The translations under genes were made by a program, and so were the position numbers. Positions 16,135 to 37,043 of a stretch of DNA of 64,000 nucleotides are shown piece by piece. Source of the stretch: Hyphomicrobiales bacterium (GTDB lineage Bacteria; Pseudomonadota; Alphaproteobacteria; Parvibaculales; Parvibaculaceae); assembly GCA_016124805.1 (NCBI GenBank), contig WGND01000013.1, positions 30,731 to 94,730 on the forward strand, written 5' to 3'. Position 1 is the stretch's first letter; the number at the start of each line of letters is the position of its first letter. The notes beneath the pieces are model-generated. The model searched no databases and was not told the origin of the DNA. It was given only the letters and a program-made list of their open reading frames with translations.

Positions 16135-16153
16135 GATGGTTCTCCTTCATTTC

Positions 16154-20543: not shown

Positions 20544-20591
20544 TCCCCTAAAGGCGTGGGGTGTCGGGGGTGCGTAACCCGCCGACTAGGT

Positions 20592-20913: not shown

Positions 20914-20974
20914 TAGCAACTTTGCTTCCTTTTTTTTACTCGCTTCGGCAGGCGTCTATTAGGGGAGATGGAGC

Positions 20975-22433: not shown

Positions 22434-22512
22434 CAAACCACCCGGCAACTTCCAATGATTTATGGAAGAGACAACTACGCTGCCCACAGAAATATCGATC
22501 TAAAGGAAGCGA

Positions 22513-22896: not shown

Positions 22897-22948
22897 GACC
22901 GGCGACCTCGCTGACCAATCCAAATCAAAACTCAAACTCATGGGCAGA

Positions 22949-23197: not shown

Positions 23198-23417
23198 CGG
23201 GAGATACCCGGCTTTTTTCCTTCGCCCAAAACAGTGTCTGCGCGCACATATCCAAGGACTGTATTTCTTTTCGCAAAGACGATTGACGTTTCTTCCCGTC
23301 TCGAATCTGAGCTTCAATCTCCAAGACCCGCGTGCGAATCTCTTTCGCCTCCGCGAATCGCCTGAGCAATCTGCTCAATAATGTCCCATCGGCATTCTGC
23401 CGAACATCCACCGTCAT
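23190..23417 (-). CDS. Small helical hypothetical protein
   Basis: A 75-residue protein, almost wholly predicted coiled coil (RRFAEAKEIRTRVLEIEAQI, then KKRQSSLRKEIQSLD). No membrane segment. Overlaps the following small membrane protein gene by 8 bases and lies 36 bases after the stop of the 308-residue helical protein gene, suggesting one operon. Function unknown. Confidence 0.5.
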   Translation of the reverse strand: MTVDVRQNADGTLLSRLLRRFAEAKEIRTRVLEIEAQIRDGKKRQSSLRKEIQSLDMCAQTLFWAKEKSRVSPDE

Positions 23418-23453
23418 TTTGGTCTGCCTTCAACCAGTCCATCATGGTCGTGC

Positions 23454-24380
23454 CTAAGCAGGCAGCGCCACCTCATGCACCGAGCCTTCCTTTTCCAGCA
23501 GAGGAATATTTAGATAGGTCCAGAATCGACACGCCGCTTGCCCGAACGAGTCAAAAATTTTCTTCTCTGCCTGGGCGCGATGACCGGACCGACGCTCCGC
23601 AAGTATTTGCTGAGTTGCCCAAGCCCATTTAAATGTCTCGTAAGACGTGGCGTCGAGACCTTCGTTGAGTTCGATCGCGCGAACTTTAACCGCCTTTATC
23701 GCACTCAAATTTCTCTTTGCTTCCTCCAATTCGCTCTTGAGTGAAGCGGAGGCATCTCGCGTCTCTCCAGTTTTGTACAAATTGTACAAAGCCCTCAAGA
23801 CGCCATAGATCACAAAGGCTTCGCCGAGCGCGTCGGCTACACTAAGTTCCCCAAAACTACCTAGGTCATGCGGGGCCACGTCAAGGTTATCCAAATGCGC
23901 GTCGGCGATCACATCGTTCAGACGCTCCCTGAGCAAGGGAATATCTACGATATGCAAGTGATCCAACCCTTCTAGGCCTTGAATTACCAAAATGCCACCT
24001 GAGAGCAATGGGATTGCATTGTCGAAATTCTTCGTCAGTGGTTCGTATAGACCATAAGCTGTCTTGATGAGTTCTTTGATTTCGCGAAAGCTTTTGCCGC
24101 TGAACCAACCATTTTTTGTGTCAAATGCTGGGCAATCCGGGCCTAATTTTGCGGCCACTCCATTCACTCGTTCCATGAGCCGCCGCACATACCCCAATCG
24201 ATGATTGCCTAGATCATCCATCGTCTTGAGCAAGTATCCCGTTTCCCGCCGGAGGTTTTCTTGAACTCGTTTATATTCCTCAGCAAATTCGGAATACTCC
24301 CTCTGCGCCCGTTGCCTGTTGCGCGCGATGCCCCTCCTGAGCATAAGAAATGCAATGGTGATCGAGAGTGGATCGATCAT
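23454..24380 (-). CDS. Helical hypothetical protein of the element, unknown
   Basis: About 308 residues from MIDPLSITIAF (24380), preferred over the upstream start at 24452 because ribosome-site-like AGGGAG/AAGG precede it and the extra residues look non-coding. A short hydrophobic N-terminal segment (PLSITIAFLMLRRGIA) could anchor it; the rest is helical with a coiled coil near residues 22-55 and a late segment rich in Lys/Glu. It heads the minus-strand set with two or three small proteins. I do not recognise it; the layout (helical sensor plus small membrane partners) would suit a defence or entry-exclusion role, but that is speculation. Confidence 0.5.
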   Translation of the reverse strand: MIDPLSITIAFLMLRRGIARNRQRAQREYSEFAEEYKRVQENLRRETGYLLKTMDDLGNHRLGYVRRLMERVNGVAAKLGPDCPAFDTKNGWFSGKSFREIKELIKTAYGLYEPLTKNFDNAIPLLSGGILVIQGLEGLDHLHIVDIPLLRERLNDVIADAHLDNLDVAPHDLGSFGELSVADALGEAFVIYGVLRALYNLYKTGETRDASASLKSELEEAKRNLSAIKAVKVRAIELNEGLDATSYETFKWAWATQQILAERRSGHRAQAEKKIFDSFGQAACRFWTYLNIPLLEKEGSVHEVALPA

Positions 24381-24695
24381 GACGTTGCCTTGCTCCCTAG
24401 CAGAGACCCGATCTACGCAAAGTAACAACGCGAGTGACGCCGGTCTATCCACGCAGCTATCTCAACGCTGGCTTTGGAGATCCAATAACCTCAACATTTC
24501 ATGGTAACAGCATCTCCTCAAGCGCTCCCCCGCACGATCTCACCTCAAATGCTGCTTCTGCGAAGGCCCTGCATCTACCCAGATGATGTCGTAACCGATT
24601 GAATTCATGGGGTTTGAATAGACAAGAATCTTCTCGCAACTGTAACAAACAAAAAAGTCACAACATGCTAAAAATCAAAATACACAGGATTGGAT

Positions 24696-25091
24696 ATGAC
24701 GTACGCCACGCAAAATAGAAAAGAAGAAAGGCCGAATGCTTGGCTTACCGCGTTTCTGACTTTTGCGCGCAACTCTGCACTAGCTCATGTTGCGGCGTCG
24801 GCGTTTGGTGAAATTGACGGTTATGGCTTTATCGAATGTCTCAAAAGCCGCAGGTTGATGACCTTATCGTTGGCGTTCGGTGCGATCACTGCGGCCATCG
24901 GATTTAGGCGTTCCAGCCCTGTTTCCACAGGATGCAATCCTTCGGCTGAGCGAGATGAACGCTCACAGAACGACAGATTTCAACTCACTTCGTTAAATCT
25001 TGGCACTTTTAATTCCGAGTCAATTACCCACGCAGCGCGCATTCGCGCTCAAGAGGCGGCGCGCTCCACGAGCGAGCAACACATTGTCTAA
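24696..25091 (+). CDS. Possible small hypothetical protein
   Basis: 131 codons from the ATG at 24696 with CAGGA seven bases upstream; the frame itself opens with TTG at 24690. A moderately hydrophobic stretch occurs at about residues 50-70 (RRLMTLSLAFGAITAAIGF). No family. It sits 55 bases downstream of a TGTAACAAA motif also found before the genes at 29031 and 30215, which is the best support for its being expressed. It ends against the convergent gene at 25092. Confidence 0.35.
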   Translation: MTYATQNRKEERPNAWLTAFLTFARNSALAHVAASAFGEIDGYGFIECLKSRRLMTLSLAFGAITAAIGFRRSSPVSTGCNPSAERDERSQNDRFQLTSLNLGTFNSESITHAARIRAQEAARSTSEQHIV

Positions 25092-25640
25092 CTAGACAAC
25101 CATCGGGCAATAGTCCGGCAGCGCCGCAAGTGCCTGAGCGAGGCCCGGCGATTGCTGCGACACAGGCAAACACTGCGTCACCGGCACATCACGGATTTCC
25201 TGAGGCTTTGGTTTCGCGCGGTTGCGGCGCGCAAATCGATAGATACGCCTAGCAATCAGCCCCATCGTACCGAGCCAGAAAAGCCCCGCGACGGCCTGCA
25301 TCCCCTGCTGATTTCCCGCAGTGATCGCAGCATAGGCAAAGGCGCACCAGATGATCCCGCCAACAACAAACCGCACCACCCTGCTGCGAAAGAGCGCGTT
25401 GATAACACTTGCGCCGCCTTCGCCACCAACCGCCTGCCACTCACGCTTCCACTGGCGGTATTCGCCGAGATGCTCGTTAGCGTTAAGGGATGACAATGCG
25501 ACAACAGCAGCAACAATCGGAAACAGTACGGGCGCTTGCCATGCGTACCACGCATAGGCAAGGAAGGCGGTCAGCAGCCACATGCCAATGAGGCTGAGCG
25601 GATTGCCAATGAGCCAGGTGAGGAACCCGGGACGGTTCAT
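25092..25640 (-). CDS. Small polytopic membrane protein, partner of coupling ATPase
   Basis: A 182-residue protein with four hydrophobic segments in two pairs (about residues 8-30, 34-52, 88-108 and 113-132), then a basic cytoplasmic tail (RRIYRFARRNRAKPKP). It overlaps the coupling-protein gene by 4 bases (ATGA), so it is produced with it. Because the coupling ATPase has no membrane segments of its own, this protein may supply the membrane anchor that coupling proteins normally carry at their N-terminus. This is inferred from arrangement; I know no family name. Confidence 0.7.
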   Translation of the reverse strand: MNRPGFLTWLIGNPLSLIGMWLLTAFLAYAWYAWQAPVLFPIVAAVVALSSLNANEHLGEYRQWKREWQAVGGEGGASVINALFRSRVVRFVVGGIIWCAFAYAAITAGNQQGMQAVAGLFWLGTMGLIARRIYRFARRNRAKPKPQEIRDVPVTQCLPVSQQSPGLAQALAALPDYCPMVV

Positions 25641-27211
25641 TGCTCAAACCTCGTCACCAGATAGTTGCGGCCACTGTCGCTGAAGGTCTTGCCCGCCTGA
25701 AACCAGATAGCGGTGACATTGCCGCCATTGGCGGTGCCGCCGGTCTTCAGCCCACGGGCAAAATCGGCGGGCTCGATCTCATAGTCCATCGTCTCGCTAT
25801 AGCCGCCGCTGACGCTTTCGCCACTGTTGATGCCGCGATTGCGGCCCCAATTCTCTCCACCACCATAATTGCCGCCGGAGCTTGAATTGGTCGAGACATT
25901 GCCACGACCGTCGCTCGACGAGCCGTGACCGGAGTTGCTGCCCCAACTGCTGTTGCCGCCGCTGCTCATGCCACGCGAGCGGCCATAGGACTCGCCCTCG
26001 CTATAAGTCCCCCGGCGCTGGATGCTGCGACCGATAGTGTCGGCGGCCCAGCGGTTCGTCTCCGGATCGGCGTTGTTGTGGAATATCTTGGTGATGAAAT
26101 TGCCAAGCAGCATGTCGGTTTTGTGCTTTGGATTGTCGCTGCCCATTTTGGCGTAATAGGTCGGCAGGGACTGGGTGAGATAGACGGTGCAGGCCCTTGC
26201 CGAACGGCAGGCCGACTGGAAGTCGCTGTCGAAGGAATTGACGAAATACTGCGCCTCGTCCACCCACAGAAAGACGGGCCGGTCGAGATGCTTCGGCCCC
26301 AACCTTTCACGCGCCAACACGGCACGCTGCCACATGAACTTGAAAAGCTGCTGGGCGACGATGCCATCTTCGTTCCAAGTCAGCGCCGACATATCCATGA
26401 CGATGATCGCGCCGTGGAAGGTCAGTTCGGGAACAAGCGTCGTCTCAGTGCAAAAGGCCTGATGGAGCCGCCCGCGATTGAAGCGGTCAAGCGCGGTCGA
26501 AAGCGAGATGGCGATATTACTGCGGGTTTTAGGATCGAGCTGGGCGAATTCGTCGTGCCAGTAGCTGCCGATCTTGTCGAGATCGTCCGTGTCGAGCCGG
26601 TGGGTGGGCTCCTTCTCGGCCTTCCACATCATGGCGAACATGAAGGACGACTTCTGCCATTCCACGCTTTGCGCCTGTTGCAGGCTCATGGGCGCGGAGG
26701 CGACAAAGCGGATGATGTCGCTGATCCGTACGGTGCCGGAGGCCGCATAGAGGATGGGGATGGTGTTTCGCAGGACCTGACGGCTGGAGTCCTCCCAGAA
26801 CTGGTTGCCGCCCCGGTCGCCACCTGAGCCGGAGAGGCGGCATGCCTCCAAGATACGCATCAGGCATTCCACGACACTACCCGTGCCGGCAGTGCCCTGC
26901 CGGGCCAGTTCATAGGTAATGAAATTGAAGCCACCGCCGTGGCTCTCGCCAAACAGGATCAGCGAATTGGCGCGGCCATTTTCCTCGGCGTAGCGTACCC
27001 ATGTGCTTACCTCGTCCGGCTTGGCGCAGAGCACCAGCCCGCCGAAACCGGCGCGTAAATAGGCAGCGGCGAGGGCGCGCCCGGAACCAGAAGTCTTGCC
27101 GGAACCGATGCCGCCAAAAACATGCACCCCCTGACAGGCATCGCGCAGGGTAAATCGGTCCGCTGCCGAAAGTTGTAGCAGCGGCGTATCCAGCTCACTC
27201 ACATAGTCCAT
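25637..27211 (-). CDS. Type IV coupling ATPase (TraG/TraD/VirD4-like), lacking membrane helices
   Basis: From ATG at 27211 (524 residues). Walker A GGIGSGKT at 33-40 and Walker B FLWVDEAQYF near 314-323 belong to the VirD4/TraG hexameric DNA pumps that bring relaxosomes to a type IV secretion channel. The ATPase core starts almost at the N-terminus: the usual pair of transmembrane helices is absent. A Ser/Gly-rich segment near 415-470 (SSGGNSSWGSNSGHGS) is unusual and may be a flexible tether. No channel genes exist in the element, so it must engage a helper's apparatus. Confidence 0.85.
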   Translation of the reverse strand: MDYVSELDTPLLQLSAADRFTLRDACQGVHVFGGIGSGKTSGSGRALAAAYLRAGFGGLVLCAKPDEVSTWVRYAEENGRANSLILFGESHGGGFNFITYELARQGTAGTGSVVECLMRILEACRLSGSGGDRGGNQFWEDSSRQVLRNTIPILYAASGTVRISDIIRFVASAPMSLQQAQSVEWQKSSFMFAMMWKAEKEPTHRLDTDDLDKIGSYWHDEFAQLDPKTRSNIAISLSTALDRFNRGRLHQAFCTETTLVPELTFHGAIIVMDMSALTWNEDGIVAQQLFKFMWQRAVLARERLGPKHLDRPVFLWVDEAQYFVNSFDSDFQSACRSARACTVYLTQSLPTYYAKMGSDNPKHKTDMLLGNFITKIFHNNADPETNRWAADTIGRSIQRRGTYSEGESYGRSRGMSSGGNSSWGSNSGHGSSSDGRGNVSTNSSSGGNYGGGENWGRNRGINSGESVSGGYSETMDYEIEPADFARGLKTGGTANGGNVTAIWFQAGKTFSDSGRNYLVTRFEQ

Positions 27212-27332
27212 TGCCCCACCCCCGGCGACCACTCCCGAACAGAAACTCTATGCAGAAAATATCTTCTAGAAAAGCGGCGGATGATAGGCTTAGTATTTGC
27301 GTATACGGACCGTCTGTTAACGGAGTGGATGG

Positions 27333-27656
27333 TTGGATACTGAACCGCGCGCAAAGCCGGAAGGCATTGCGGAGTATCTATTCAACGAGCTGCGCTACGC
27401 CCTGCGGGATATCCGGCAGAAGGTGGTGGAAGAAGGCTGGTTTGGCAGGATTGTGACGCCGACCGGCGAGACAGGGGCGTCGCCCGAGTTCACCAAATCC
27501 GAAAGTCTCTATGGGGATGACCACCAGCCCATGCAGGCCACGCAGGCAGAAGCGCCGGAGCGCCGCCCTTCCTTCGAGGAGCGATGGGCGGTGAGGGAGG
27601 GGCCGGAAGCGCCCGCCACACTTGAACAGAGCCATGAGATCGACTTCGACCGCTAG
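27333..27656 (+). CDS. Hypothetical protein, divergent from coupling ATPase
   Basis: A 107-residue protein. The start is TTG at 27333, with GGAG seven bases before it. Residues 10-40 form a helix (IAEYLFNELRYALRDIRQKV); the remainder is Pro/Glu-rich and probably disordered. No family. It leads a plus-strand run of small genes up to 29390. The 120 bases between it and the coupling ATPase should hold two divergent promoters. Confidence 0.55.
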   Translation: MDTEPRAKPEGIAEYLFNELRYALRDIRQKVVEEGWFGRIVTPTGETGASPEFTKSESLYGDDHQPMQATQAEAPERRPSFEERWAVREGPEAPATLEQSHEIDFDR

Positions 27657-27676
27657 GCATTTTGGGGACCGACACT

Positions 27677-28195
27677 ATGGACACCGCACCTTCCGTTACG
27701 CCAGATCCCGGCGCAATCAAGCTCTGGTTCGCACAGGTTAATGGCAAGATTGATGAGATACACGCGGCAATTTTTGCCACGTCGGGCTGGCTGGTCTTCA
27801 AGACCCATACGCATTCGACAGAGGACCTGCTGAGCAACAACCCGACGCTTGAGGGCATTCGGTCGCTGCTGGGGCAGATCGACAATGTCGTGCAGAGCTG
27901 GTTGCAAAGCGACACAGCGGATGCACCGCTGGCACAATTTTATTATGACAACCGCATCCTTGTAGAACAAAGGCTGAGCAGTCTTCGTGCAGAAATCATC
28001 GCGCGCAAGCCGACCTTCTGGGAAGCCATACTCCATACAATCGGGCACCTGCTGCAACTGGTCCGTAAGCTGCTGCCTGCCCTGCCTGCGATGTTGCTTC
28101 GTAGTCTTGGCATCCGCGTCGATGCCATGCAGCAACACCTGCAAGAGCGCTCGGACGATCTTGACGATCTAATTGATGGCTTGCTGCGGCGATGA
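27677..28195 (+). CDS. Hypothetical protein, helical with membrane-active segment
   Basis: A 172-residue protein from ATG 27677 (TTG 27662 is an in-frame alternative; GGGGA precedes the ATG). Largely helical, with an amphipathic or weakly hydrophobic region at about 117-140 (LLQLVRKLLPALPAMLLRS) and an acidic end. It overlaps the next gene by 4 bases (ATGA). Function unknown; the pairing with a membrane protein gene suggests a two-component membrane system. Confidence 0.6.
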   Translation: MDTAPSVTPDPGAIKLWFAQVNGKIDEIHAAIFATSGWLVFKTHTHSTEDLLSNNPTLEGIRSLLGQIDNVVQSWLQSDTADAPLAQFYYDNRILVEQRLSSLRAEIIARKPTFWEAILHTIGHLLQLVRKLLPALPAMLLRSLGIRVDAMQQHLQERSDDLDDLIDGLLRR

Positions 28196-28920
28196 GCGGG
28201 CCCGCGAGTTTCGCAACCCTGTTCGTGAGCGCCTGCCACGCCAAGAACTATGCGACAGCAAGTGATATTGCCGTAAAGGACGGAAACGGCTTGCCAGGAG
28301 AACCACTTATCACTTGCGGTTCCGGCGAGCAGGCACTGACCTTCTCCGACACGGGACTTTGGTTCAAGGGCCCGAACGGCGCAGCGGTCGAATACACGTG
28401 GCTTGATCTAGACTTCATCCTACCTAGCGACCTTACGCTAGTGAGCAGCATGGTTTACACCTTCACCGACATGGATTTGCTGGCCGAGCGCATCGCCCTT
28501 GTCACGGGCCGCGCTTTCGCCGTGGCAGCGGTGGCCGGACTAGCCTTCCTGATAATAGCCACCGTCTACAGCAGCATCGCGCCCATTGTAGGCACACTAC
28601 ATGCCTATCTCGGCATCGTCGGCGACGCACTTTCATTATTGGGTTTCTTCATGCTGGTCATGGTTCTCAGTCCGGTCATTATTCCCATAGCGCTTGGTGC
28701 AATGGCCACCGGCGGAGCGGTCGCCATGCTGGGAAACGCAGTGGGTAAACAGGTCCGTCCGCTGGCGCGGTGGGGACTCTCGCTCATATTTCGGGACTTT
28801 CCCAATGGCGTCCAAATCATCAAATCGCGTTGGGTGAAACCGCCTTGGGGCACGCCGACAACCAGCTTGCGTGACATGATCCTTCTCGGAGTGAAATTAC
28901 AACGGCGTGGCTTCACATGA
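28192..28920 (+). CDS. Membrane protein of the element, unknown
   Basis: A 242-residue protein with a soluble N-terminal part (about 100 residues, beta-rich) and two long hydrophobic hairpins at about 105-130 and 140-185 (GFFMLVMVLSPVIIPIALGA). Translationally coupled to the upstream gene by an ATGA overlap. I recognise no family. It could be a toxin, immunity or transfer-related protein; nothing in the sequence decides this. Confidence 0.6.
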   Translation: MSGPASFATLFVSACHAKNYATASDIAVKDGNGLPGEPLITCGSGEQALTFSDTGLWFKGPNGAAVEYTWLDLDFILPSDLTLVSSMVYTFTDMDLLAERIALVTGRAFAVAAVAGLAFLIIATVYSSIAPIVGTLHAYLGIVGDALSLLGFFMLVMVLSPVIIPIALGAMATGGAVAMLGNAVGKQVRPLARWGLSLIFRDFPNGVQIIKSRWVKPPWGTPTTSLRDMILLGVKLQRRGFT

Positions 28921-29030
28921 TGGAAAAGCCTTGAAAGACAAAGGCTTGATACACCAGTACGGTGCACTTCCCGCAAACTTCTCGGGAATGTAACAAACGC
29001 CAATAGCCGTGGGCCTTATAATGCCAAGAC

Positions 29031-29390
29031 ATGTCGAATCTTGGAAACAACATCTCGGACCTTACGCATCGCTCCGCTGAACTGGACAAGCTGATCGACA
29101 GTCTGCTGCCGTCGGGAAGCGAAAGCGCGGCCAATGCCGCGCACAATATGAACACTCCATTGCTTGGCCCCACCATCGACCGAATGAAGCAAGGGTGGCA
29201 AGGAGTAAGCCAAGCAAAACTTCCGAATGGAATCAGCGGCAGCAAAGCAGCCGCAATCGTGGCCGGAATTGCCGTCGCGGGTGGTGCGCTTTACGCGCTC
29301 ACGCGCAAAAAGAAAGAACCGGTCAGCACATGGACGGGCCGCGTTGACGCCGAACGCGCCAGCGCGCCGGGCCAGAACACGGGTCGATAA
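29031..29390 (+). CDS. Small single-pass membrane hypothetical protein
   Basis: A 119-residue protein with a hydrophilic helical N-terminus (NNISDLTHRSAELDKLIDSL), one glycine/alanine-rich transmembrane helix at about 71-90 (KAAAIVAGIAVAGGALYAL) and a basic RKKK stop-transfer. A TGTAACAAA motif is 34 bases upstream of the start, and TATAAT lies at 29017-29022. Function unknown. Confidence 0.55.
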   Translation: MSNLGNNISDLTHRSAELDKLIDSLLPSGSESAANAAHNMNTPLLGPTIDRMKQGWQGVSQAKLPNGISGSKAAAIVAGIAVAGGALYALTRKKKEPVSTWTGRVDAERASAPGQNTGR

Positions 29391-29409
29391 TCTCTCTGCA
29401 TCAATGACA

Positions 29410-29988
29410 CTATCGCCATTTACGCCAGAGCCTACGGGCGAAGGCGCGTTCCTCGCGGCCAACCGCCTGCTGATAAATGGCGGTCGTCTCAAGCCGCGCA
29501 TGGCCCAGCCATTTCTGCGTGGTCGCCATCGGTACATTTTCCTCGGCATTAGCGACACCGAAAGCGTGGCGTAAACCCTTCGGCATGGCCTGCGGGCCGT
29601 CGATGCTTGCGCTGTCCATCACCGCCTTGACCCGCCGCCACGCGGTTTGGCGGCACCAACGCCAGAGCGGTGCATCATCCGGCCCGTCGCCGCCCATGCG
29701 ACGCAGCGCCGCCATTAACTCCGGCGGCACGGGCACAGCGCGGAATAGCTGGCGGCGGCGCTTCAGGGTACGAAAGACCACACGCCCCGTTTCTCCATCG
29801 AGCTGGGCGGATGTCAGCGCCAGTGCCTCGCTGATGCGACAGCCTGTGAAGGCAAGCAAACAGCAGAATGTGCAGGTCTCAACATCCGCATGGCGCGCGG
29901 CTTCAAGGAAACGCGGCAACTCACTGCCGCAAAGATATTTGCGGCCTCCAGTTTCATCGAAAAGTGATAGCGGATCGGATGAGCGCAT
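29410..29988 (-). CDS. Small tyrosine recombinase (catalytic domain only)
   Basis: About 192 residues from MRSSDPLSLF. Catalytic features of tyrosine recombinases are present: Arg in TGCRISEAL, Lys/Arg-rich beta hairpin (FRTLKRRRQLF), GLRHAFG for the second Arg, a GHARLETTAIY end with the nucleophilic Tyr. The N-terminal SAM-like core-binding domain of XerC/D is missing or vestigial, as in short FimB-type invertases and plasmid resolvases. Its promoter region contains a perfect pair of 18-base inverted repeats at 30011 and 30152. It is distinct from the integrase at 35682 and probably works on other sites. Confidence 0.85.
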   Translation of the reverse strand: MRSSDPLSLFDETGGRKYLCGSELPRFLEAARHADVETCTFCCLLAFTGCRISEALALTSAQLDGETGRVVFRTLKRRRQLFRAVPVPPELMAALRRMGGDGPDDAPLWRWCRQTAWRRVKAVMDSASIDGPQAMPKGLRHAFGVANAEENVPMATTQKWLGHARLETTAIYQQAVGREERAFARRLWRKWR

Positions 29989-30010
29989 CACGCCTCCGAA
30001 GCCGCAACAG

Positions 30011-30028
30011 TATGCGGAATAAAGTTGC
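30011..30028 (+). repeat. 18-base inverted repeat, left copy
   Basis: TATGCGGAATAAAGTTGC. Its exact reverse complement is at 30152-30169. The identity is 18 of 18 and ends sharply on both sides. The copies enclose 123 bases between the small recombinase gene and the next plus-strand gene. Confidence 0.8.
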
Positions 30029-30151
30029 AAGATGGAGAAGCGCGAAAACGCGCTCTGGCCCTGACAAAAAGCAGCCTTACGCCAATGTCGGGTTCACAAT
30101 GCTCTTGAGGCAAAAACACACCGCCAGCTTTGGAATAAGCTGACGTTCACC

Positions 30152-30169
30152 GCAACTTTATTCCGCATA
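30152..30169 (-). repeat. 18-base inverted repeat, right copy
   Basis: GCAACTTTATTCCGCATA, the exact reverse complement of 30011-30028. It directly precedes the TGTAACAAA motif (30171-30179), which lies 35 bases before the gene at 30215, so a change of orientation between the repeats would alter what is upstream of that gene and of the recombinase. Confidence 0.8.
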
Positions 30170-30214
30170 GTGTAACAAATTCCTTGGGTATTTTGGGCTC
30201 CAAGGGAGACGGCA

Positions 30215-30397
30215 ATGGCGAATGTCTACGAAGTGCGCCACAGCAACGGTCAAACCTATGATGTGACGACCGACCGCCATCATGACGATCATCACGAAGA
30301 TGATTTCAAAGCGATCCTACTAAACATTGTGGAAAGAAGCGCCGGGACTGCAATTGGCGGCGTGGTGCTGCACTTCATCCTCAAAGGCCGTAGGTAA
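30215..30397 (+). CDS. Small histidine/aspartate-rich protein
   Basis: A 60-residue protein preceded by a good ribosome site (AAGGGAGA). The middle holds DRHHDDHHEDD, a cluster that could bind metal, and the C-terminus is a short hydrophobic helix (AGTAIGGVVLHFILKGRR). No family is recognised. It is 6 bases upstream of the secreted protein gene at 30404, so both are probably co-transcribed from a promoter next to the 18-base repeat. Confidence 0.55.
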   Translation: MANVYEVRHSNGQTYDVTTDRHHDDHHEDDFKAILLNIVERSAGTAIGGVVLHFILKGRR

Positions 30398-30403
30398 ACG
30401 GCC

Positions 30404-30805
30404 ATGAGAGGGAAACAGAGATTGGCTGTGCGCCTGACGGCAGCGCTGGCGGTATACGCCTGCGCCTCCATATCCGGCAACGTGACGGCACGGGCGGAAG
30501 AGGACGCCACGACGCAGGCCAATCGGACGGCCTACAGCGCGCTGATGAAGTGCTTTGTGGCAAACGGCTTTGCGAATGGTGAGCGGCTAGATGCTGGTGA
30601 TGCTGCCAAAGCGGCTATCTATGACAGGCAAGCTCGTCGGTCATACGATTTGGCATACACTGCCGGGCAGAAGCTTGGATTAAGCGAGGAACAGGTCACG
30701 CGGGACATCAATTTCGTCCAGGCAACAGAGCTTCCGAAGATGGTTCGTGATCAGCAATATTTCATCAGCGCGGTCGCAACTTGCAAGGCACTCCATCTAA
30801 TGTAG
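30404..30805 (+). CDS. Secreted hypothetical protein
   Basis: A 133-residue protein with a signal peptide (basic MRGKQRLAVRL, hydrophobic core, probable cleavage after TARA near residue 30). The mature part is helical with two cysteines (MKCFVANGF and ATCKALHLM) that could bridge. No known family. It follows the His-rich small protein and may be a periplasmic accessory of transfer or exclusion. Confidence 0.6.
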   Translation: MRGKQRLAVRLTAALAVYACASISGNVTARAEEDATTQANRTAYSALMKCFVANGFANGERLDAGDAAKAAIYDRQARRSYDLAYTAGQKLGLSEEQVTRDINFVQATELPKMVRDQQYFISAVATCKALHLM

Positions 30806-30813
30806 GCCTCGCG

Positions 30814-31782
30814 CTAGCCCCGCCCGCGCACCGTACTTTGACTGTCCCGAACAGTAAGGCCATGCCCATCATCATTCTGCTGGGCACCCGTGACACCCGA
30901 CGCCCGCAAACTAGCGATGACATCTGCCGGGACGTGCTGGTCGGGTTGGACATTATCGGCGGGATCGGCTTTAGCCGTTTCGTGGTCATCTTTCGTTTTG
31001 GTCGTTTTTCCCAACTGTTGAGAGAGCCTCTCACGCTGCGCCCTGAGTGTCGAAAGAGTTGACTTATACTTGGAACTTCTATCCGCACCATGAGCACCGG
31101 CATCTTCCAACTGTTCGATAGCCATGTCGCTCGCCCGCAATTCGCCTTCGGGCGTATGCTCGGCGCGCGCTTTCTCTATTTCCTGCTTCCATGTTTCCTC
31201 GCGGCGGAAGTATTCCTCTTTGTCCTTCTCCGACGCGAATTTGAGGTACGGGTCGAAGATGCGGCGGTCGTAGAAGTCATGCATAAAATCGCCGACAGCG
31301 CGATGCGCTTCCGCACTCGCCTGCTGCAACGAGGTCTCGGTCGCCGCGCGGTCTGACGCGGGGCTGGTCGAAGCGGCGCGGACATCCGATGTATAAGCGC
31401 GTATGTCCGAGACAGCGGACGTGATTTCGGCGCGAAGGGCGGCCAGCGGCAAGCCATTTGCGCCTGAGACCAATTGGTCTCGCAAAAAATTGAGATGTTT
31501 CAGACGGGCGCTGCCCTGCTCCTGCATATCGCCACCGGAAAGCGCGCCGGACGAACGAAGCCCCTCCAACTGACTTTCGAGCGCATGCTGAGCGGCATCA
31601 AGTTGCTGAAGAAGTTCGGCACGGGAAGGCTCGGCGCTCGATGGCGCGCTGGCTTCTCCAGTTTGAATGACTGGGCGAAGCAAGGGATTTCCGATTGCGA
31701 GATAGCCCTCTGCACGGCCACTTTCGTCACTCTGTGAAACTGTATCGTCCTGCGAAATACGCACTCCCTCAAACTCAATCAT
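30814..31782 (-). CDS. Coiled-coil hypothetical protein
   Basis: A 322-residue soluble protein. The N-terminal 60 residues are Ser/Glu-rich and disordered; residues about 55-110 and 200-275 are coiled coil (AELLQQLDAAQHALESQLEG, SLSTLRAQRERLSQQ-like segments) around FMHDFYDRRIFDPYLKFA. The tail is again disordered. It converges on the secreted protein gene with 8 bases between stops. No family is recognised. Confidence 0.55.
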   Translation of the reverse strand: MIEFEGVRISQDDTVSQSDESGRAEGYLAIGNPLLRPVIQTGEASAPSSAEPSRAELLQQLDAAQHALESQLEGLRSSGALSGGDMQEQGSARLKHLNFLRDQLVSGANGLPLAALRAEITSAVSDIRAYTSDVRAASTSPASDRAATETSLQQASAEAHRAVGDFMHDFYDRRIFDPYLKFASEKDKEEYFRREETWKQEIEKARAEHTPEGELRASDMAIEQLEDAGAHGADRSSKYKSTLSTLRAQRERLSQQLGKTTKTKDDHETAKADPADNVQPDQHVPADVIASLRASGVTGAQQNDDGHGLTVRDSQSTVRGRG

Positions 31783-32042
31783 TCTCGCATGTGCGCGTTA
31801 ACATCTCGTTAACTTTATATTGCTCCGTAAGCAGTTGAAATACATACCAAGATACGTTGATCGAACGACAAGAGAAAATTTGTGGTTGCGGCACGGCCCC
31901 ACCGTTTCCACACACCATTCGTGGCATTGCTTAATCAAAGCACCTTGGTCGGTTGAGGCAGCAAGCGCTGAAGCGCTCCTCCTCTGACGTTGCGGTCGCA
32001 AGCGATGCAGCCACCTCCTTCGGTGCGGTTCTCCGCGCATAG

Positions 32043-32057
32043 CCGCGATGGTCGCGG
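32043..32057 (+). promoter_or_regulatory. Leader hairpin before the 60-residue gene
   Basis: CCGCGA-TGG-TCGCGG, a perfect 6-base-pair stem, nine bases upstream of the ribosome site AGGAGG. It resembles the hairpin at 16154-16176 in sequence (AGCCGCG...ATGGTC...CGCGG) and position. The preceding 250 bases (31783-32042) include further small dyads such as AGCGCTGAAGCGCT but no gene. Confidence 0.45.
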
Positions 32058-32077
32058 TCGGAAACGAAGGAGGACTT

Positions 32078-32260
32078 ATGAAGCCGCTGAGCACCATTGA
32101 ACTCGACACCAGCACCCGGCTTGAGCTTCTAGCCATACTTAACGCGATTGAGCTTGAGCTATGGGTTGGCGTGGAAGACCCACAAGAACGGCTCATCAAT
32201 TTAACGAACCAAGAAATGGTGCGCCATATTCTTTCCCGACACCAAAACCGTTCAAGGTGA
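32078..32260 (+). CDS. Small hypothetical protein
   Basis: A 60-residue protein starting MKPLSTIELDTSTRLEL, chosen over the upstream in-frame start at 32048 because a strong AGGAGG lies six bases before this ATG. Helical and acidic, ending RHILSRHQNRSR. It resembles small plasmid- or island-borne proteins with no assigned role. It converges on the PHP-SMC gene. Confidence 0.6.
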   Translation: MKPLSTIELDTSTRLELLAILNAIELELWVGVEDPQERLINLTNQEMVRHILSRHQNRSR

Positions 32261-32305
32261 AAGAGGCTTTACCTTGGCGTCGGGCAACTCAAACAAATAT
32301 TTAGC

Positions 32306-35272
32306 CTAAATGTAGCTCTTCCGCGAAATTTGGTACTTCTTTTTGCGCTGATTAAACGCTGGTTCGCCACCTTCAAGAATCCCACACACTTGTTCGATTA
32401 TTCCATCTTCTAGGTCTTCTACGGGGACATCGGGAATGTATCTGGCATGATCCTCCAAAGAGCCTGATGCGTAAACCATCCGAGGCGACCTATCACCATC
32501 ATAGTTTGCTAGGACGACTTGCTCTGCGTCGGTATTCACGACCAGATTGGGGTTATGCGTGACCATAATAATCTGACGAAATCGTTTTCTATCTCGGAAA
32601 TATCCCATGAGGTCTGCATAGATTGAAAGATTGTCGAGATTTTCCTCTGGTTGGTCGATAATAAGTGGCCTGTCGTCTGCCTTGTCAATTTCAAGGTACA
32701 ACATCAGCAGAATAATGCCTTTTTGTCCTGGGGACAGGACATACAATTCGGAACCTTCAAATTTGAGAGAAGAGACAATTTCAAAGTTCGTTGGATCAAA
32801 GAGCCAGTTGTAGAATTCCTCTAGGCCGCAGTTCTCTCGAAGCTGTTGCTGAATTTCTACATTTGTGCCGTCGAAATTCGTGAATGCATCAAGCAGCTTT
32901 TGAATTTCGCTTTGAATGGCAGCGGGATCAAAGTCAGAGCGAGATAATTGTTCAAACATCTCGCCTAATGCTTTCTTGAGATTGGGCTGATCTCGAAAAT
33001 TGCCTTTGCGGGTACGGTCGATGATATCGTGACCTGCGCGGCAATGTGCTTCTATGCGGTAGCCAATACGAGCCTCGAAGGTCAGCTTTTTGTCTGTTTC
33101 AGTACCCGCGCCAAGAGAATCCTGAAGAGGTTTATATAGCTCCTCAATCTTCGACTTCTCACGTCCGCAAATCTCAAAATAAGAGATGTATGCGGCGGAC
33201 CGTTCATTCTCCAACCGCGCAAGCTCGGGCTTAAGCTCGGCATCGATTTTTGCGATTTCACTTTCGAGCGCTTTAATAGTTTGTTCGACTGCAGATGCGG
33301 CAGCCTTTTGTTGTTGGTACTTCAGTTTGGTGGTTTCAAATGCCTTTGTCGCCGTACGCTGTTCGTTAATAACCGCGTTTAACGTAGCAAGATTGTCATA
33401 GGGCAACTCTGTTACGTCGCACGCAAGGATCGTGGCAACGTCTGAGCTACTGCCGGATCTCAGGACATTCAGGTCGTTCGAGATGTCCACGCGCTTGCCA
33501 TCAAACACGGCTTTTATGGCTGCATCGTTTAGAACTACCGCGAATGCTGAGCTGTCGGTTATGTCCAATTCGGACAGGAGCGGAGCTAATTCGGTCTGAA
33601 AATCGCTTATACGAGACTGAAACACCTTCACAACGGTTTCGGCTTCGCTCACCTTCGACAAGCGCCCATCTAGCTCGACAATTTTTCGCTCGAAGACTCG
33701 TTGCCATTCAATGAGTCCCGACAGTTCCTCTTGAGCCTTTTTATCCTCAGCAGGCAGTTCCGGAAGGCTTGAGTTGAGCTTCGTCAGCTCCTCCGTTTGT
33801 TGAGAGAGCGTTCGCTGCTTGTCTGGCCCGGCCTTGATGGCTGCAATTAGCGCTGCGACACGTTTGTTTGAATAGCGAATCTTTCGAATTGCTTGGTCTT
33901 TTTCGTATTGGAAGTCCGTGAGCACCCGCTTCTTAAGCTCCGCAAAGTTGGAGGCCCCACGTCTTTGCGTTTGATCGAGAGCTTGAAAGATGACGTTTTC
34001 AATCTGACCTTGGAGTACGTCGCTATTTTGATGGGAGCATAGCTCCTCGACGACACCTTGGGGCAGATAACGGACAAGTCCTTTGTCGGGAAATTCAGTC
34101 CCGACTTTCTCCGTGGTAAGCACTCCGTCACCCCAATCAAGTTCAATGACGCTGTTCGTAATCGACTCCCTATGCTTCGCCGCTTTCTTGAGGAAGGCAT
34201 CGTCGCTCGGGTCCATGCTGCCAGCACCAAAGGCAATTGCTTCGGCCAATGCGGATTTTCCCGACCCACGACCGCCTATAATCGTTACAAGGTCCCGACT
34301 TAGTTCAAGCGCGAAATCCTTAGGGAACCAGCCGCTAGATTCCCTGACTCGAATTCGAGAAATCACCTTGTGATCAGGTTTATAGTTTGGCGGCGTCTCG
34401 CCAACAAATACCCTCGCGTCAGGCTCATTTAGCACTTGCTTAAGACCAGCGAACGTCGGGTCTGCTTTTATCCAAAGCTGAGTTTTCCCGATGCGCGCGA
34501 ATTCATGTGCATCGGAAGAGTGCAAGATGATGTCGTTGAGATTATTTGCTCTTAATTCAGTCTTATGAGCGACAATTTGAGCAGGATCATCCACTGAGGT
34601 GAGTGCGAAATTCGCTGTGTTTATGAGGTCCCGCTTTTCAGCGGCTGATTGGTCCCAACGGGACAGGTTCCATTCCGAATATCCAACGGCTGTTACATAC
34701 CGTCCCCGGAATGGGGTCTTACTCAAAAGTTCTTCAATCAGTTTTCGATCATATGTGATGTTGTCAAAGCCGACCATGAGATCAGTCTTGCTTCGGATTG
34801 CATGACCGTCCGGTGCCGCCGCCTTAATGTGCCGACCAAGCTCTTCGAGCGAGGTCCGGGTCGGGGTTTGCTGCCATTCGGTCTTGTCATCAATCTTGTA
34901 GCCCGTGACTAAGCCATTGAGAAGTTGCTCCCGTATAGTCTGCGGACTAACGGTTGGGTCGAATATAACGTGGAAATTGTGGCGCTTGTTATTGTTCGCC
35001 GTGCCGCTGAACGTGTTCAGCCGGAACTCGATATTCGGCATTATGAGTTCAATGTTGGGTATCTCACTTCTTCTGGTCAACAGACGCTCATATCCGTCGC
35101 AGAAAAGGTAGTCGGTAACTGCGATCACCTTCACGTCTGAGGGCAATGCTGCCAGCGTCTGAATAAAGATGTCCCAAGCTTGCGTCGTATCACCACCGTA
35201 CTGCTGTACGATTGATTTCGGAGTGTGGATGTGGAGGTCCCAGCGCCGCCATTCAGAGCCTCTAGGATACAT
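32306..35272 (-). CDS. PHP-domain SMC-like ATPase (TrlF/Ppl-type defence protein)
   Basis: A 988-residue two-part protein. Residues 1-290 form a PHP phosphoesterase: HxH at 14-16 (DLHIHT), VTDY at 52-55, SDAH at 253-256. The rest is an SMC/Rad50-like ATPase: Walker A GGRGSGKS at 333-340, long coiled coils (about 430-720), ABC signature LSPGQ at 846-850, Walker B LIIDQPEENLD near 870-880, and a THNPN switch His. Proteins of this design are annotated as TrlF family ATPases, and a PHP-SMC protein is the single-gene Ppl anti-phage system. It is AT-rich and lies directly downstream of the element's tRNA-Leu on the same strand. Confidence 0.87.
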   Translation of the reverse strand: MYPRGSEWRRWDLHIHTPKSIVQQYGGDTTQAWDIFIQTLAALPSDVKVIAVTDYLFCDGYERLLTRRSEIPNIELIMPNIEFRLNTFSGTANNNKRHNFHVIFDPTVSPQTIREQLLNGLVTGYKIDDKTEWQQTPTRTSLEELGRHIKAAAPDGHAIRSKTDLMVGFDNITYDRKLIEELLSKTPFRGRYVTAVGYSEWNLSRWDQSAAEKRDLINTANFALTSVDDPAQIVAHKTELRANNLNDIILHSSDAHEFARIGKTQLWIKADPTFAGLKQVLNEPDARVFVGETPPNYKPDHKVISRIRVRESSGWFPKDFALELSRDLVTIIGGRGSGKSALAEAIAFGAGSMDPSDDAFLKKAAKHRESITNSVIELDWGDGVLTTEKVGTEFPDKGLVRYLPQGVVEELCSHQNSDVLQGQIENVIFQALDQTQRRGASNFAELKKRVLTDFQYEKDQAIRKIRYSNKRVAALIAAIKAGPDKQRTLSQQTEELTKLNSSLPELPAEDKKAQEELSGLIEWQRVFERKIVELDGRLSKVSEAETVVKVFQSRISDFQTELAPLLSELDITDSSAFAVVLNDAAIKAVFDGKRVDISNDLNVLRSGSSSDVATILACDVTELPYDNLATLNAVINEQRTATKAFETTKLKYQQQKAAASAVEQTIKALESEIAKIDAELKPELARLENERSAAYISYFEICGREKSKIEELYKPLQDSLGAGTETDKKLTFEARIGYRIEAHCRAGHDIIDRTRKGNFRDQPNLKKALGEMFEQLSRSDFDPAAIQSEIQKLLDAFTNFDGTNVEIQQQLRENCGLEEFYNWLFDPTNFEIVSSLKFEGSELYVLSPGQKGIILLMLYLEIDKADDRPLIIDQPEENLDNLSIYADLMGYFRDRKRFRQIIMVTHNPNLVVNTDAEQVVLANYDGDRSPRMVYASGSLEDHARYIPDVPVEDLEDGIIEQVCGILEGGEPAFNQRKKKYQISRKSYI

Positions 35273-35320
35273 TTGTCCCCCAATTTAGCGAAGTGCCGAT
35301 CCGCTTCCGTTTTCGAAACA

Positions 35321-35621
35321 TGGTGCGGGCGGCCGGACTCGAACCGGCACAGGCCTTACAGCCCTACGGATTTTCATACCACTTCGACTTTCGCCGCCGC
35401 CATGAGGCGTTTGTGGTCTGGACTATCCCTTCACCATGCTCCGGCATGCCAGAGGTTAGGTGCTGCCCGTCTAGTCTCTACACCTTCCCCTTGTGGGGCT
35501 TGGCTCGGGATTGCCATTTGAAAGGTTTCCCCGAATTTGAGCAGTTCTGCATCCTCAGTTTCCCGAGGAGCACTCAAGGTCGATTCAAGTCCGTTGCGTC
35601 TACCAATTTCGCCACGCCCGC
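35321..35621 (-). tRNA. tRNA-Leu(UAA) interrupted by a group I intron
   Basis: Exon 1 runs from 35621 to 35587 (35 nt: acceptor GCGGGCG, D-arm, 5' anticodon stem ACGGA and CTT); exon 2 runs from 35374 to 35321 (54 nt: AAAA, TCCGT, variable arm, T-arm GCCGGTTCGAGTCCGGC, acceptor CGCCCGC, discriminator A, encoded CCA). Joined, the anticodon loop is CTTAAAA with anticodon UAA. All stems pair perfectly, so the spliced tRNA should be functional. It differs from the disrupted host tRNA-Leu in acceptor and variable arms, so it is not a duplicate of it. The gene lies inside the element, 60 bases from the integrase, and would replace the tRNA that integration destroys. Confidence 0.93.
35375..35586 (-). 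ncRNA. Group I intron (subgroup IC3-like) in tRNA-Leu anticodon loop
   Basis: A 212-nt intron starting G after exon U34 and ending with the required terminal G. Core elements on the minus strand: P1 pairs exon ACTT with intron GAGT, ending in the conserved U.G; P is ATTCGGGGAAACC (35536-35524), Q is AATCCCGAGCCAAGCC (35512-35497), R contains AGAGACTAGACGGGC and S contains GGGATAGTCC; P7 pairs GACTA with TAGTC. Position (between U34 and A35) and sequence match the cyanobacterial and plastid tRNA-Leu(UAA) intron family. No open frame for a homing endonuclease fits in it. Confidence 0.93.
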
Positions 35622-35632
35622 TTGTTGCTAAA

Positions 35633-35661
35633 CCTATACTGGGCGGGCAAGGAGTCGCCAA
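35633..35661 (-). promoter_or_regulatory. Promoter of the intron-containing tRNA-Leu
   Basis: On the minus strand TTGGCG (35661-35656), a 17-base spacer and TATAGG (35638-35633) precede the mature 5' end by 11 bases. The tRNA therefore has its own promoter inside the element and does not depend on the host site. Confidence 0.55.
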
Positions 35662-35681
35662 GAACAAATTGAAAACGCACG

Positions 35682-36887
35682 CTAAAGCCTTTTGGTGACT
35701 TTCTTCGGCTTTTTCTGGGGCTTGGGTTTGCGAACGTTGATCGCCGCCGCATCCAGCGTGTTCTTGATGTGCGAGGCGTAATAATTCTCGATCATCTCGA
35801 CGCTGGTACGGCAATTTTTGGCGATCTGGTAGATGTCCGCGCCCTGCATGAGGCGCATACAGATATAGGTGTGGCGAAGGCTATAGGCCGTCCGGCGCTG
35901 GCCTTCGCGGTCGGTTTTCAGCTTCAACTCGTCGAGGACAGCGTTGAATATCTCGCGCTGAAACCTCGGAAACAGCTTATCTGTGGGCTGCCCGTTATTG
36001 CGTTTCTTCAAACGCTGAAACGGCAGCACGGCACCGTCCATGCTCTTGCAGAACCCGACACCGCGTTTACCGCGCACTTCGATTTCGAGGATGCGTTCGC
36101 CCGTTGCTTCATCGGTAACGATGGCAACGTCTCGAAATTCAAGGCGCAGTGCTTCGTCGGGGCGCAAGCCGGTGTTGGCCATAAAGAGCACATAGTCGTG
36201 GAGGTTTTCGCTAGCGGTGCGCCAGCGTTCCTTTTTGGGGTTCTTGGCTCGCGCGCGCGTGGCCTCGTAGAGCCGGGTGTACTCCTCCGGCGAGAACCAG
36301 GCACGATGCCTGACCTTCGGAGAGGACTTATACGGTGGGGAAATATCTGGCAGGTAAGGCAGCCAGCCGTGCCGTTGACCAGTTTTCAGCACCTGCCTGA
36401 GACAGACGATTTCCTGATGGAGCGTGCTGCGCGCAGGCGACGGTAGCTGCCTGCCGGTTGTCTTGTGCACACGCGGCTTCATCCGCTCGATGCGGTAGTC
36501 TTGAACAACGCCCGGTGTGATGTCTGCCAGAACTTTGTCGCCGAAGAACGGCATGAGGTGGTTCTTCAGGCGGTCCTTATGCCCTTTGACATAGATAGGG
36601 CTACGCTGCCCTTGGGTGATGATCTCGAATTCAGTCATGAACCGCTCGGCTGCTTCTTTGAAGGTCTTGCCTTCTTTCAGTTCGCCAGCGCGGTATTTGC
36701 CAAGCAGGCCCAGATACCAGTCGCGCGCCACATCCTTGGCTCGCGCAAGACTCTCTTCTTTTGTGGAGGTGCGCCGCTGCCTTCCAGCGACGGAACATGA
36801 GCACTGCCAGTGCGGACTGTTCGGTCGCATGTAGAGCTGAACCTTGTTGTCCAGCAGGGAATGCCGCGTTGTGTCCATAGAGTTCAA
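35682..36887 (-). CDS. int: Tyrosine-type site-specific integrase of the element
   Basis: A 401-residue integrase. Residues 70-180 are the SAM-like core-binding domain; the catalytic domain has Arg242 (NTGLRPDEALRLE), a beta-hairpin Lys/Arg around 273, SLRHTY with Arg338/His339 and Tyr369 or Tyr370 in MIENYYASH. The tail is Lys/Pro-rich (RKPKPQKKPKKVTKRL), probably DNA-binding. It lies next to the right attachment core, as integrases of tRNA-targeting elements do, and should recombine the ATTTTAAGTC core. It reads towards the tRNA-Leu, ending 61 bases from it. Confidence 0.92.
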   Translation of the reverse strand: MNSMDTTRHSLLDNKVQLYMRPNSPHWQCSCSVAGRQRRTSTKEESLARAKDVARDWYLGLLGKYRAGELKEGKTFKEAAERFMTEFEIITQGQRSPIYVKGHKDRLKNHLMPFFGDKVLADITPGVVQDYRIERMKPRVHKTTGRQLPSPARSTLHQEIVCLRQVLKTGQRHGWLPYLPDISPPYKSSPKVRHRAWFSPEEYTRLYEATRARAKNPKKERWRTASENLHDYVLFMANTGLRPDEALRLEFRDVAIVTDEATGERILEIEVRGKRGVGFCKSMDGAVLPFQRLKKRNNGQPTDKLFPRFQREIFNAVLDELKLKTDREGQRRTAYSLRHTYICMRLMQGADIYQIAKNCRTSVEMIENYYASHIKNTLDAAAINVRKPKPQKKPKKVTKRL

Positions 36888-36890
36888 AAA

Positions 36891-36916
36891 TGCGCTAAAT
36901 TGCTCAAATTGTGCTA
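36891..36916. repeat. TGTGCTA-type motifs near right end (possible integrase arm sites)
   Basis: TGCGCTA at 36891-36897 and TGTGCTA at 36910-36916, just upstream of the integrase start codon, matching motifs near the left end (9374-9523). The remaining bases to the core (36917-37003) are AT-rich with GATTTTA repeats, like an integrase accessory-factor region. Confidence 0.4.
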
Positions 36917-37003
36917 GGTGTGTGTTTGCCCTTTATGAAGCCAACTTACAGTGAACTATATGATTTTACAATGATATTTTTATCCGTGGTCTGATTTTAA
37001 ATC

Positions 37004-37013
37004 ATTTTAAGTC
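37004..37013. repeat. Attachment site core, right end
   Basis: ATTTTAAGTC, identical to 9304-9313. The neighbouring element sequence GATTTTAAATC forms a partial second copy of the core, but does not restore the 3' half of the tRNA. Confidence 0.88.
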
Positions 37014-37043
37014 TGTTGCGTATACCAGTTTCGCCAAGGGGCC
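37004..37043 (-). pseudogene. 5' half of host tRNA-Leu(UAA), separated by the element
   Basis: On the minus strand: acceptor GGCCCCT, then TG, D-arm with GGTATACGC, 5' anticodon stem ACAGA and loop CTTAAAA, ending at the core. The next bases are element sequence and contain no variable arm, T-arm or acceptor 3' strand. Its partner is at 9257-9313. The transcript from the old promoter would run into the element's right end. Confidence 0.93.

Follow-up and report, generated by a model that had tools for sequence, protein, structure and literature searches.

How does a mobile element that breaks a host tRNA gene, and brings a complete copy of the same gene with it, keep that copy from serving its own integrase as a second target? 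The question is posed by the window analysed here, a stretch of 64,000 nucleotides in which a host tRNA-Leu(UAA) gene lies in two halves at the ends of an integrated element, and a complete, intron-bearing tRNA-Leu(UAA) gene lies beside the gene for the element's integrase (Table 1). The composite answer put forward, on which the arguments for and against come close to balancing, is that the element splits the host tRNA gene without rebuilding it and likely replaces it, and that the intron, by interrupting the integration core, shields the rescue gene from the element's own integrase.

Table 1. Coordinates of the features discussed in the text
Feature	Position in window	Strand	Basis
Integrated element with MobA/MobL relaxase and TraG/TraD-like genes	9304..37013	.	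core copies, Pfam
Host tRNA-Leu(UAA), 3' half with CCA, left junction	9257..9313	-	core at 9304-9313
MobA/MobL relaxase	20975..21967	+	Pfam
TraG/TraD-like coupling protein	25637..27232	-	Pfam
Replacement tRNA-Leu(UAA) with intron	35321..35621	-	ARAGORN, introns allowed
Exon 2, 54 nt, starting AAAATCCG, ending CCA	35321..35374	-	ARAGORN
Group I intron, 212 nt, between anticodon positions U34 and A35	35375..35586	-	Rfam RF00028, ARAGORN, covariation
Exon 1, 35 nt, ending ...CGGACTT	35587..35621	-	ARAGORN
Likely promoter of the replacement tRNA: TTGGCG, 17 nt, TATAGG	35633..35661	-	motif; similar in many relatives
Tyrosine integrase, 401 aa, immediately ahead of the replacement tRNA	35682..36887	-	Pfam
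Host tRNA-Leu(UAA), 5' half, right junction	37004..37043	-	core at 37004-37013

A host tRNA gene split and not rebuilt

The window holds two copies of GACTTAAAAT, both on the minus strand, where shuffled sequence would lead one to expect 0.07; one copy lies at each end of the 27.7-kb element. Joined in silico, the two flanking halves yield one intact tRNA-Leu(UAA) (ARAGORN): the element interrupts the host gene within its anticodon loop. At neither junction is there an intact target tRNA of the kind that marks a rebuilding island. Several features by which tRNA-dependent integration is recognised are present: a tyrosine integrase, an attB inside a host tRNA gene, a core of about 10 bp, and a tRNA left unrestored at both junctions. 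On this point the original prediction, which had read an insertion into the anticodon loop of a tRNA-Leu(UAA) with two halves left behind, is confirmed by the halves themselves and by GACTTAAAAT at both junctions, neither of them rebuilt.

The undisturbed site can be seen in the genus. Among 27 of its genomes (the window's own included), 16 match a pattern for the 5' part of tRNA-Leu(UAA), and in 15 of these the gene is intact and intronless according to ARAGORN. The neighbour protein of the window's right flank adjoins tRNA-Leu(UAA) in 14 of the 16 congeners, at 69-76% identity; locus L187 has a 53-aa piece from a different right-flank reading frame beside its tRNA-Leu(UAA), and L188, which is cut by a contig end, has no right-flank match. 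The left flank (7400-9303) finds no match within 1.5 kb at any of the 16 congener loci, and synteny is therefore confined to the right side. The exception among the congeners (G032, locus L185) has the 5' part of tRNA-Leu(UAA) followed by unrelated sequence, perhaps another insertion into the same gene.

Is the gene carried by the element the only tRNA-Leu(UAA) of its genome? The draft (20 contigs, 99.76% complete) yields 39 tRNA genes, all typed; their leucine types are CAA, UAG, CAG and GAG, and there is no tRNA-Leu(UAA) among them. Expected tRNAs such as tRNA-Trp are missing from the 39 as well, so the list is incomplete. An exact search for the core, which is blind to genes with a different loop or stem, is the better evidence: elsewhere in the genome GACTTAAAAT occurs twice, on contigs C2 and C7, and neither copy resembles a tRNA gene. 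A check for another intact tRNA-Leu(UAA), proposed along with the original prediction, thus finds none in the draft genome, either among the 39 typed tRNAs or by the exact-core search. That result is the one observation from which a need for the replacement tRNA after integration might be argued. The rescue tRNA is presumably made, and presumably essential; that the element replaces the host tRNA with its own copy is very probable.

What kind of element is it? Its integrase matches the Pfam family Phage_int_SAM_3 above the cut-off and Phage_integrase just under it (26.3 of 27.1 bits); R242, R338, H339 and Y370, which we take to be the catalytic residues, are invariant across 26 aligned integrases. 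Pfam searches of 19 element reading frames identified the relaxase and the coupling protein and no phage structural family; with its integrase, MobA/MobL and TraG/TraD-like proteins it may be an integrative and mobilizable element. A scan of viral contigs with the integrase gave no match. The element also has cargo. At 10531-14298 of the window lie a DNA methyltransferase (PADLOC Type II MTase), a HATPase protein and a helicase that resembles PADLOC PbeA over its C-terminal part, a group that may be a defence island. A Fic-domain protein with DUF4172 (19329-20477) has SoFic as its top PADLOC match, and a 988-aa SMC-like ATPase (32306-35272) with PADLOC matches to Ppl and LmuB adjoins the rescue tRNA.

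The replacement gene, its likely promoter and its intron

The replacement gene starts 60 bp past the integrase stop codon. Run over the whole window with default settings, ARAGORN reports zero tRNA genes, an illustration of how intron-blind searches miss a gene that is probably essential. Once introns are allowed, the program calls a tRNA-Leu(UAA) with a 212-nt intron, written 'gactt-Intron-aaaat', and predicts a mature tRNA of 89 nt including CCA. Spliced in silico, the exons (35587-35621 and 35321-35374) join to GACTTAAAAT, and the spliced exon sequence reads CGGACTTAAAATCCG; the intron divides the core, and splicing would restore it. The intron scores 54.7 bits against RF00028 (gathering score 50) over model positions 1-253 of 253, has the group I hallmarks of a U ahead of the 5' splice site and a terminal G, and is the sole match to RF00028 in the whole genome at E values up to 1. 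ARAGORN and Rfam therefore place the intron where it had been read from the sequence, between GACTT and AAAAT, with predicted splicing restoring GACTTAAAAT.

The gene had also been credited with completeness and with a promoter of its own, and both attributions are upheld, the first by ARAGORN and the second by a promoter-like motif common to the relatives. The likely promoter (TTGGCG-17 nt-TATAGG) stops 11 nt ahead of the replacement gene, and in relatives a promoter-like TTGGC-N17-TATA precedes the rescue genes by about 12 nt. Scored over the relatives, the motif has a mean best value of 7.98 of 12, compared with 6.74 for shuffled sequence, and reaches 9 or more in 17% of relatives against 3% of shuffles; TATA occurs within the -26 to -6 stretch of 33 of 46 rescue genes.

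The proposed mechanism then runs as follows. The integrase would insert the element at the anticodon loop, breaking the host tRNA-Leu(UAA), and the carried gene would likely take over for the broken one; the rescue gene would also relieve the element of having to match the host 3' half. Because the intron, lying inside the core, interrupts the likely landing site of the integrase, the element's own enzyme would fail to recognise the spare gene. The intron probably splices by itself, and its predicted self-splicing would restore a normal tRNA at the RNA level. What would be averted is recombination in cis: the attachment site and the rescue gene point the same way, 1.4 kb from each other, on either side of the integrase gene, and an exchange between them would remove the integrase and ruin the rescue gene. 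Protection from such an event would be the benefit that the intron confers. The hazard had originally been described in other terms, as the killing of the cell by a secondary insertion. A second insertion would bring its own rescue gene, however, and the danger is therefore better put as recombination within the element, with deletion of the integrase.

A family of elements with the same gene order

A protein search recovered 7203 integrase relatives among 7999 candidates scored. With a 26-integrase alignment, the best 80 of 532 loci (58-81% identity) were selected; together with the window and a genome of the same family (G009, locus L045) they form the set of 82 loci on which the following counts are based. 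(A technical note: the order-level survey consists of the same 40 genomes as the family-level survey.) Every one of the 82 integrase reading frames is at least 300 codons long, and 79 of 82 contain the motif LRHT. Many of the family's records are labelled Alphaproteobacteria; several of the CAA loci are labelled as other phyla.

An intron-bearing tRNA-Leu(UAA) lies beside the integrase at 49 of the 82 loci (80 of which, as stated, are the best 80 of 532); 45 of these genes are complete and four are cut or not closed (L084, L086, L087, L109). In the same set, an intronless tRNA-Leu(CAA) takes its place at 22 of 82 loci. Other arrangements occur at single loci: a CAA gene with an intron (L082), a decayed CAA gene (L073), an intronless UAA gene (L094), an intronless UAG gene (L061), an intronless Tyr gene (L056), and a decayed Leu gene adjoining the 3' part of a tRNA-Arg (L071). 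No rescue gene was found at L075, L108 is a contig end, and a rescue gene is absent from L117, L118 and L123; intact tRNA-Arg and tRNA-Met genes lie beside L118 and L117, respectively. Whether all related elements carry the intron-bearing tRNA next to the integrase had been posed as a question; many do, and others do not. Intronless rescue genes in related elements, which had been named in advance as evidence against the reading, do exist, in the 22 CAA loci and in the single UAA, UAG and Tyr loci.

The order host 5' half, integrase, rescue tRNA, all on one strand, is repeated in dozens of loci. At 45 of the 49 UAA-intron loci the integrase is preceded by a host tRNA-Leu 5' half, the half-gene rule being unmatched at L081, L096, L104 and L125; at seven loci (L083, L088, L089, L091, L092, L094, L104) the core is present without a half that the rule recognises. 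Could the arrangement in the window nevertheless be the accident of one genome, an element caught in decay? The finding did come from a single genome. The same gene order in dozens of loci, the full-length integrase frames and the promoter-like motif ahead of the rescue genes make this exceedingly improbable; it is refuted, in effect, by a family that shows the arrangement repeatedly.

The opposite ends of the relatives' elements were sought as CTTAAAATC followed by a T arm in 25 UAA-intron genomes (24 reached via loci, plus G009), which covers 24 of the 47 UAA-intron loci of the best-80 set. The pattern was found in 23 of the 25 genomes, at 28 places, of which 24 are 3' halves by the D-arm test and four were flagged as intact. 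Of the latter, L190 has no 5' acceptor strand and is a far end whose core is longer; the other three are intact and intronless, so that three of the 25 genomes (G431, G436, G438), all of them metagenome bins, have a further gene matching the pattern. Element lengths range from about 6.2 to 49.2 kb in the 15 relatives that have both ends on one contig, and the G009 element measures about 27.5 kb. In G009 and L051 a tRNA-like 3' sequence still lies on the element side of the junction. These relics, along with L118 and L117, would fit an ancestry in ordinary rebuilding elements.

Several single loci deserve mention in their own right. At L056 (5840-7330) the target is tRNA-Tyr(GTA), and so is the intronless rescue gene: the family switches to other tRNAs, with rescue genes to match. 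L052 has two family integrases in tandem (4503-5711 and 6001-7134), with the host 5' half on one side of the pair and the rescue tRNA on the other; neither a tRNA half nor a rescue gene is seen between the two. (A search of the flanks of the 80 loci, which missed the L052 integrase pair, found no element inserted into the rescue gene of another, in any class.) L093 (5610-5880) and L121 (4059-5860) each have two differing tRNA-Leu 5' halves, one after the other, ahead of a single integrase; they may be what repeated insertion has left behind. At L063 (5834) the target half looks like CAA yet reads GACTTAAAAG, and the rescue gene is CAA, a possible mismatch at the crossover.

The intron in relatives and in resident genes

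Is the intron of the window one of a coherent group? The 82-locus set has 46 complete introns, of which 42 were aligned (all but L055, L067, L111 and L116). For this alignment RNAalifold predicts 45 pairs, 21 of them with both sides changed in at least one sequence. An Rfam scan of 11 relative loci places five at or above the gathering score, L082 included, and six below it. All 58 complete intron-bearing UAA genes splice to ACTTAAAAT by a boundary rule; 45 of these come from the 82 loci and 13 from a survey of the class (eight of the 13 being resident, with no integrase). The rule, by which the intron was found in 59 genes (58 UAA and one CAA), demanded a G before AAAA, so the terminal G of the relatives' introns is there by construction.

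The survey of the class bears directly on what the intron is for. A group I intron match was found in 31 of 385 genomes, and 16 of 30 class-survey intron loci are tRNA-Leu(UAA) genes (ARAGORN and reading). Six of the 16 are associated with integrases of the family (L041, L045, L134, L135, which is the same as L160, L142 and L147); at eight, no integrase of the family lies within up to 5 kb (L154, L156, L157, L158, L162, L164, L165, L167). At L163 a host 5' half lies about 200 nt upstream of the intron-bearing gene, and the locus looks like a remnant. Pfam finds ordinary genes among 20 neighbouring reading frames of L154, L156-L158 and L162-L165, with an rve-type transposase at L163. The idea that the intron is exclusive to such elements was accordingly rejected: resident tRNA-Leu(UAA) genes bear the same intron.

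(Other loci of the survey are noted for completeness. L155, in G117, has an intron-bearing tRNA-Leu(UAA) amid many tRNA genes in an AT-rich stretch that, we presume, perhaps resembles plastid DNA; the boundary rule failed on it, and it was left out of counts and trees. L161, in G092, is a tRNA-Leu(CAA) with a group I intron just ahead of C34 and no family integrase nearby. L168, L169, L170, L172 and L173 have group I introns in other tRNA genes of the class, such as tRNA-Lys(UUU) in L168.)

Resident genes of this kind open the way to a different account, in which an ancestral element captured a tRNA-Leu(UAA) that already bore the intron, and the cassette has been inherited since, the intron having no role in integration. 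Eight intron-bearing genes with no integrase nearby could supply such a capture. In the intron tree, moreover, resident and element introns are intermingled (L082 stands on an end branch of 5.18); the element's gene may therefore have come from a resident one, or the residents may be domesticated rescue genes. Distances between introns are correlated weakly with those between integrases (r 0.197, a value reached in 2 of 2000 permutations, with L052 entered under the wrong one of its two integrases). Frequencies tell against simple inheritance: the intron is found in 49 of 50 UAA rescue genes, whereas a resident intron-bearing tRNA-Leu(UAA) was recognised in eight of 385 class genomes, which is a lower bound. 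So does the integrase tree, on which the isoacceptor shifts at least 14 times, UAA being nearly always accompanied by the intron; intron presence changes at least 11 times, and the combined UAA-intron label 14 times, six of these changes being forced by well-supported branches.

Would a rescue gene without an intron be a target?

For tyrosine integrases, a 7-bp anticodon loop serving as the overlap region, with stem-encoded core sites, has been described (PMC8371274, in the text available), and by analogy the integrase of the window probably exchanges strands at the 7-bp loop. How closely, then, does the rescue gene match the site that was used? In all 15 elements for which both host halves are available (the window and 14 of the 16 relatives tried; L096 and L104 gave no left half) the spliced rescue loop is identical to the loop of the used site, and over the 17-bp stem-loop the two differ at 0 to 6 stem positions, with 0 in L052 and L124. 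Where only the host 5' half is compared, the loops agree at 40 of 41 loci, the exception being L111. With its intron removed, a rescue gene would, on these matches, resemble a used site.

The intronless relatives provide the natural comparison. Native UAA loops read CTTAAAA in 52 of 53 pattern matches from 190 genomes (some of these are split halves, e.g., in G009 and G178), and native CAA loops from 289 genomes divide into 23 of 52 CTCAAAA and 29 of 52 TTCAAAA; the counts were made by hand in the window's class only, with patterns that permitted just C or T at the variable place. UAA loops being nearly invariant, a mismatched UAA rescue gene is hardly to be had. Among the 22 intronless CAA rescue genes, 12 keep the 7-nt loop of their target or attachment site (L062, L077, L083, L088, L089, L090, L091, L092, L100, L101, L107, L122) and ten differ; the same nine bases are kept in four (L077, L089, L092, L107). 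That CAA rescue genes avoid a matching core was considered and rejected: 12 matches in 22 is not below the natural mix of loops (23 of 52 CTCAAAA), and there is consequently no sign of avoidance in this class. Since intronless CAA genes keep the loop, or even the nine bases, the intron is not required. The intronless Tyr gene of L056 likewise keeps GACTGTAAA as its target does, and the intronless UAA gene of L094 has its loop intact.

The 22 intronless CAA loci (in a set dominated by the best 80 of 532), 12 of them with a matching loop, thus add to the case for an intron that merely came along with a captured UAA gene. Against that account there is L082, in which a second, very divergent intron interrupts a CAA rescue gene 1 nt further 5', and in which the spliced core equals the target core; its sister L106 (support 100) lacks an intron, and its loop is mismatched. 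All told, capture of an already interrupted gene is quite possible, if on balance doubtful. The UAA class and the intron are so nearly inseparable that the effects of isoacceptor and intron cannot be separated statistically, L082 being the one separate case.

A further possibility is that the intron does shield, only against something else: homologous recombination involving the host halves, or further elements that recognise the same loop. This is the Randau-Soell idea for archaeal tRNA introns, which have been proposed as barriers to integration (PMC4090602, PMC3293823, in the parts available). A broken gene at the same place in the congener G032 is in keeping with it. Evidence of the other sort comes from L084, L120 and L124. 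The first exon of their rescue genes is similar to the host 5' half at the same locus (identical to it in L084), which suggests homologous exchange between rescue exon and host half, and hints that such exchange does happen. A shield of this different kind is improbable.

Self-immunity by way of the intron, the core of the original prediction, therefore comes away qualified. Speaking for it are the loop matches (40 of 41), the presence of the intron in UAA rescue genes (49 of 50), and L082; speaking against it are the 12 of 22 intronless CAA genes that keep the loop, and the introns of resident genes. As an interpretation of sequence comparisons, it is plausible. The wider proposition, that elements of this widespread family use a self-splicing intron to disguise a gene at the level of DNA, so that the rescue tRNA would be invisible to its own integrase and normal only as RNA, we advance tentatively, as having somewhat less than an even chance.

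If the camouflage reading is true, every tRNA-Leu whose anticodon loop is suitable would be open to these elements, in several phyla and with no rebuilding; the persistence of a group I intron in a bacterial tRNA gene would have a selective explanation; and tRNA-dependent integration would extend far beyond the actinobacteriophages, to an element that bears a relaxase. The family, in any case, offers natural contrasts (UAA with the intron, CAA without, and one CAA with) for asking whether introns guard tRNA genes from integrases.

Relation to known systems

Small group I introns between U34 and A35 are a feature of cyanobacterial and plastid tRNA-Leu(UAA) genes. The intron of the window occupies the same place in the same gene; the difference is that it is found on a mobile element, within the core of that element's attachment site.

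Replacement of a host tRNA by an integrating element is already known. In tRNA-dependent lysogeny, described for the mycobacteriophages Fionnbharth, Gaia and others (PMC10865867, mBio 2024, here and below according to its available text), the host tRNA is replaced by a cognate phage tRNA. These phages of Actinobacteria, like the element of the window, have a tyrosine integrase and a core of about 10 bp (10 bp in the phages) in a host tRNA gene that is not reconstructed; Gaia has its tRNA-Leu(CAA) downstream of the integrase. The element of the window differs in being apparently of mobilizable type and in having a group I intron within the core of the rescue gene; the available text mentions no intron in a phage tRNA, the word occurring once, in the title of a reference. 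The original assertion that no element of this design had been described does not stand, then, for the replacement tRNA. As to the core-breaking intron, no published element with an intron that breaks the core of its replacement tRNA was found, in a search thin on subscription papers, and such an intron is apparently undescribed.

Other integrating elements share parts of the design. Extra tRNA genes in prophages and islands have been recorded in S. meliloti (PMC11476347, in part). The Islander islands (PMC4383910, likewise in part) are also the work of tyrosine integrases, for which a crossover in the anticodon loop is one known subsite; unlike them, the present element has no junction that rebuilds the tRNA. 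Tycheposons (PMC10872708) are tyrosine recombinase elements with a tRNA at their border, and what is accessible of their description does not mention an intron-bearing replacement tRNA. Archaea offer a parallel for the intron: as set out in the available portion of PMC4090602, the intron there likewise breaks a tRNA attachment site, only it is the host that is protected, whereas here it would be the element's own gene.
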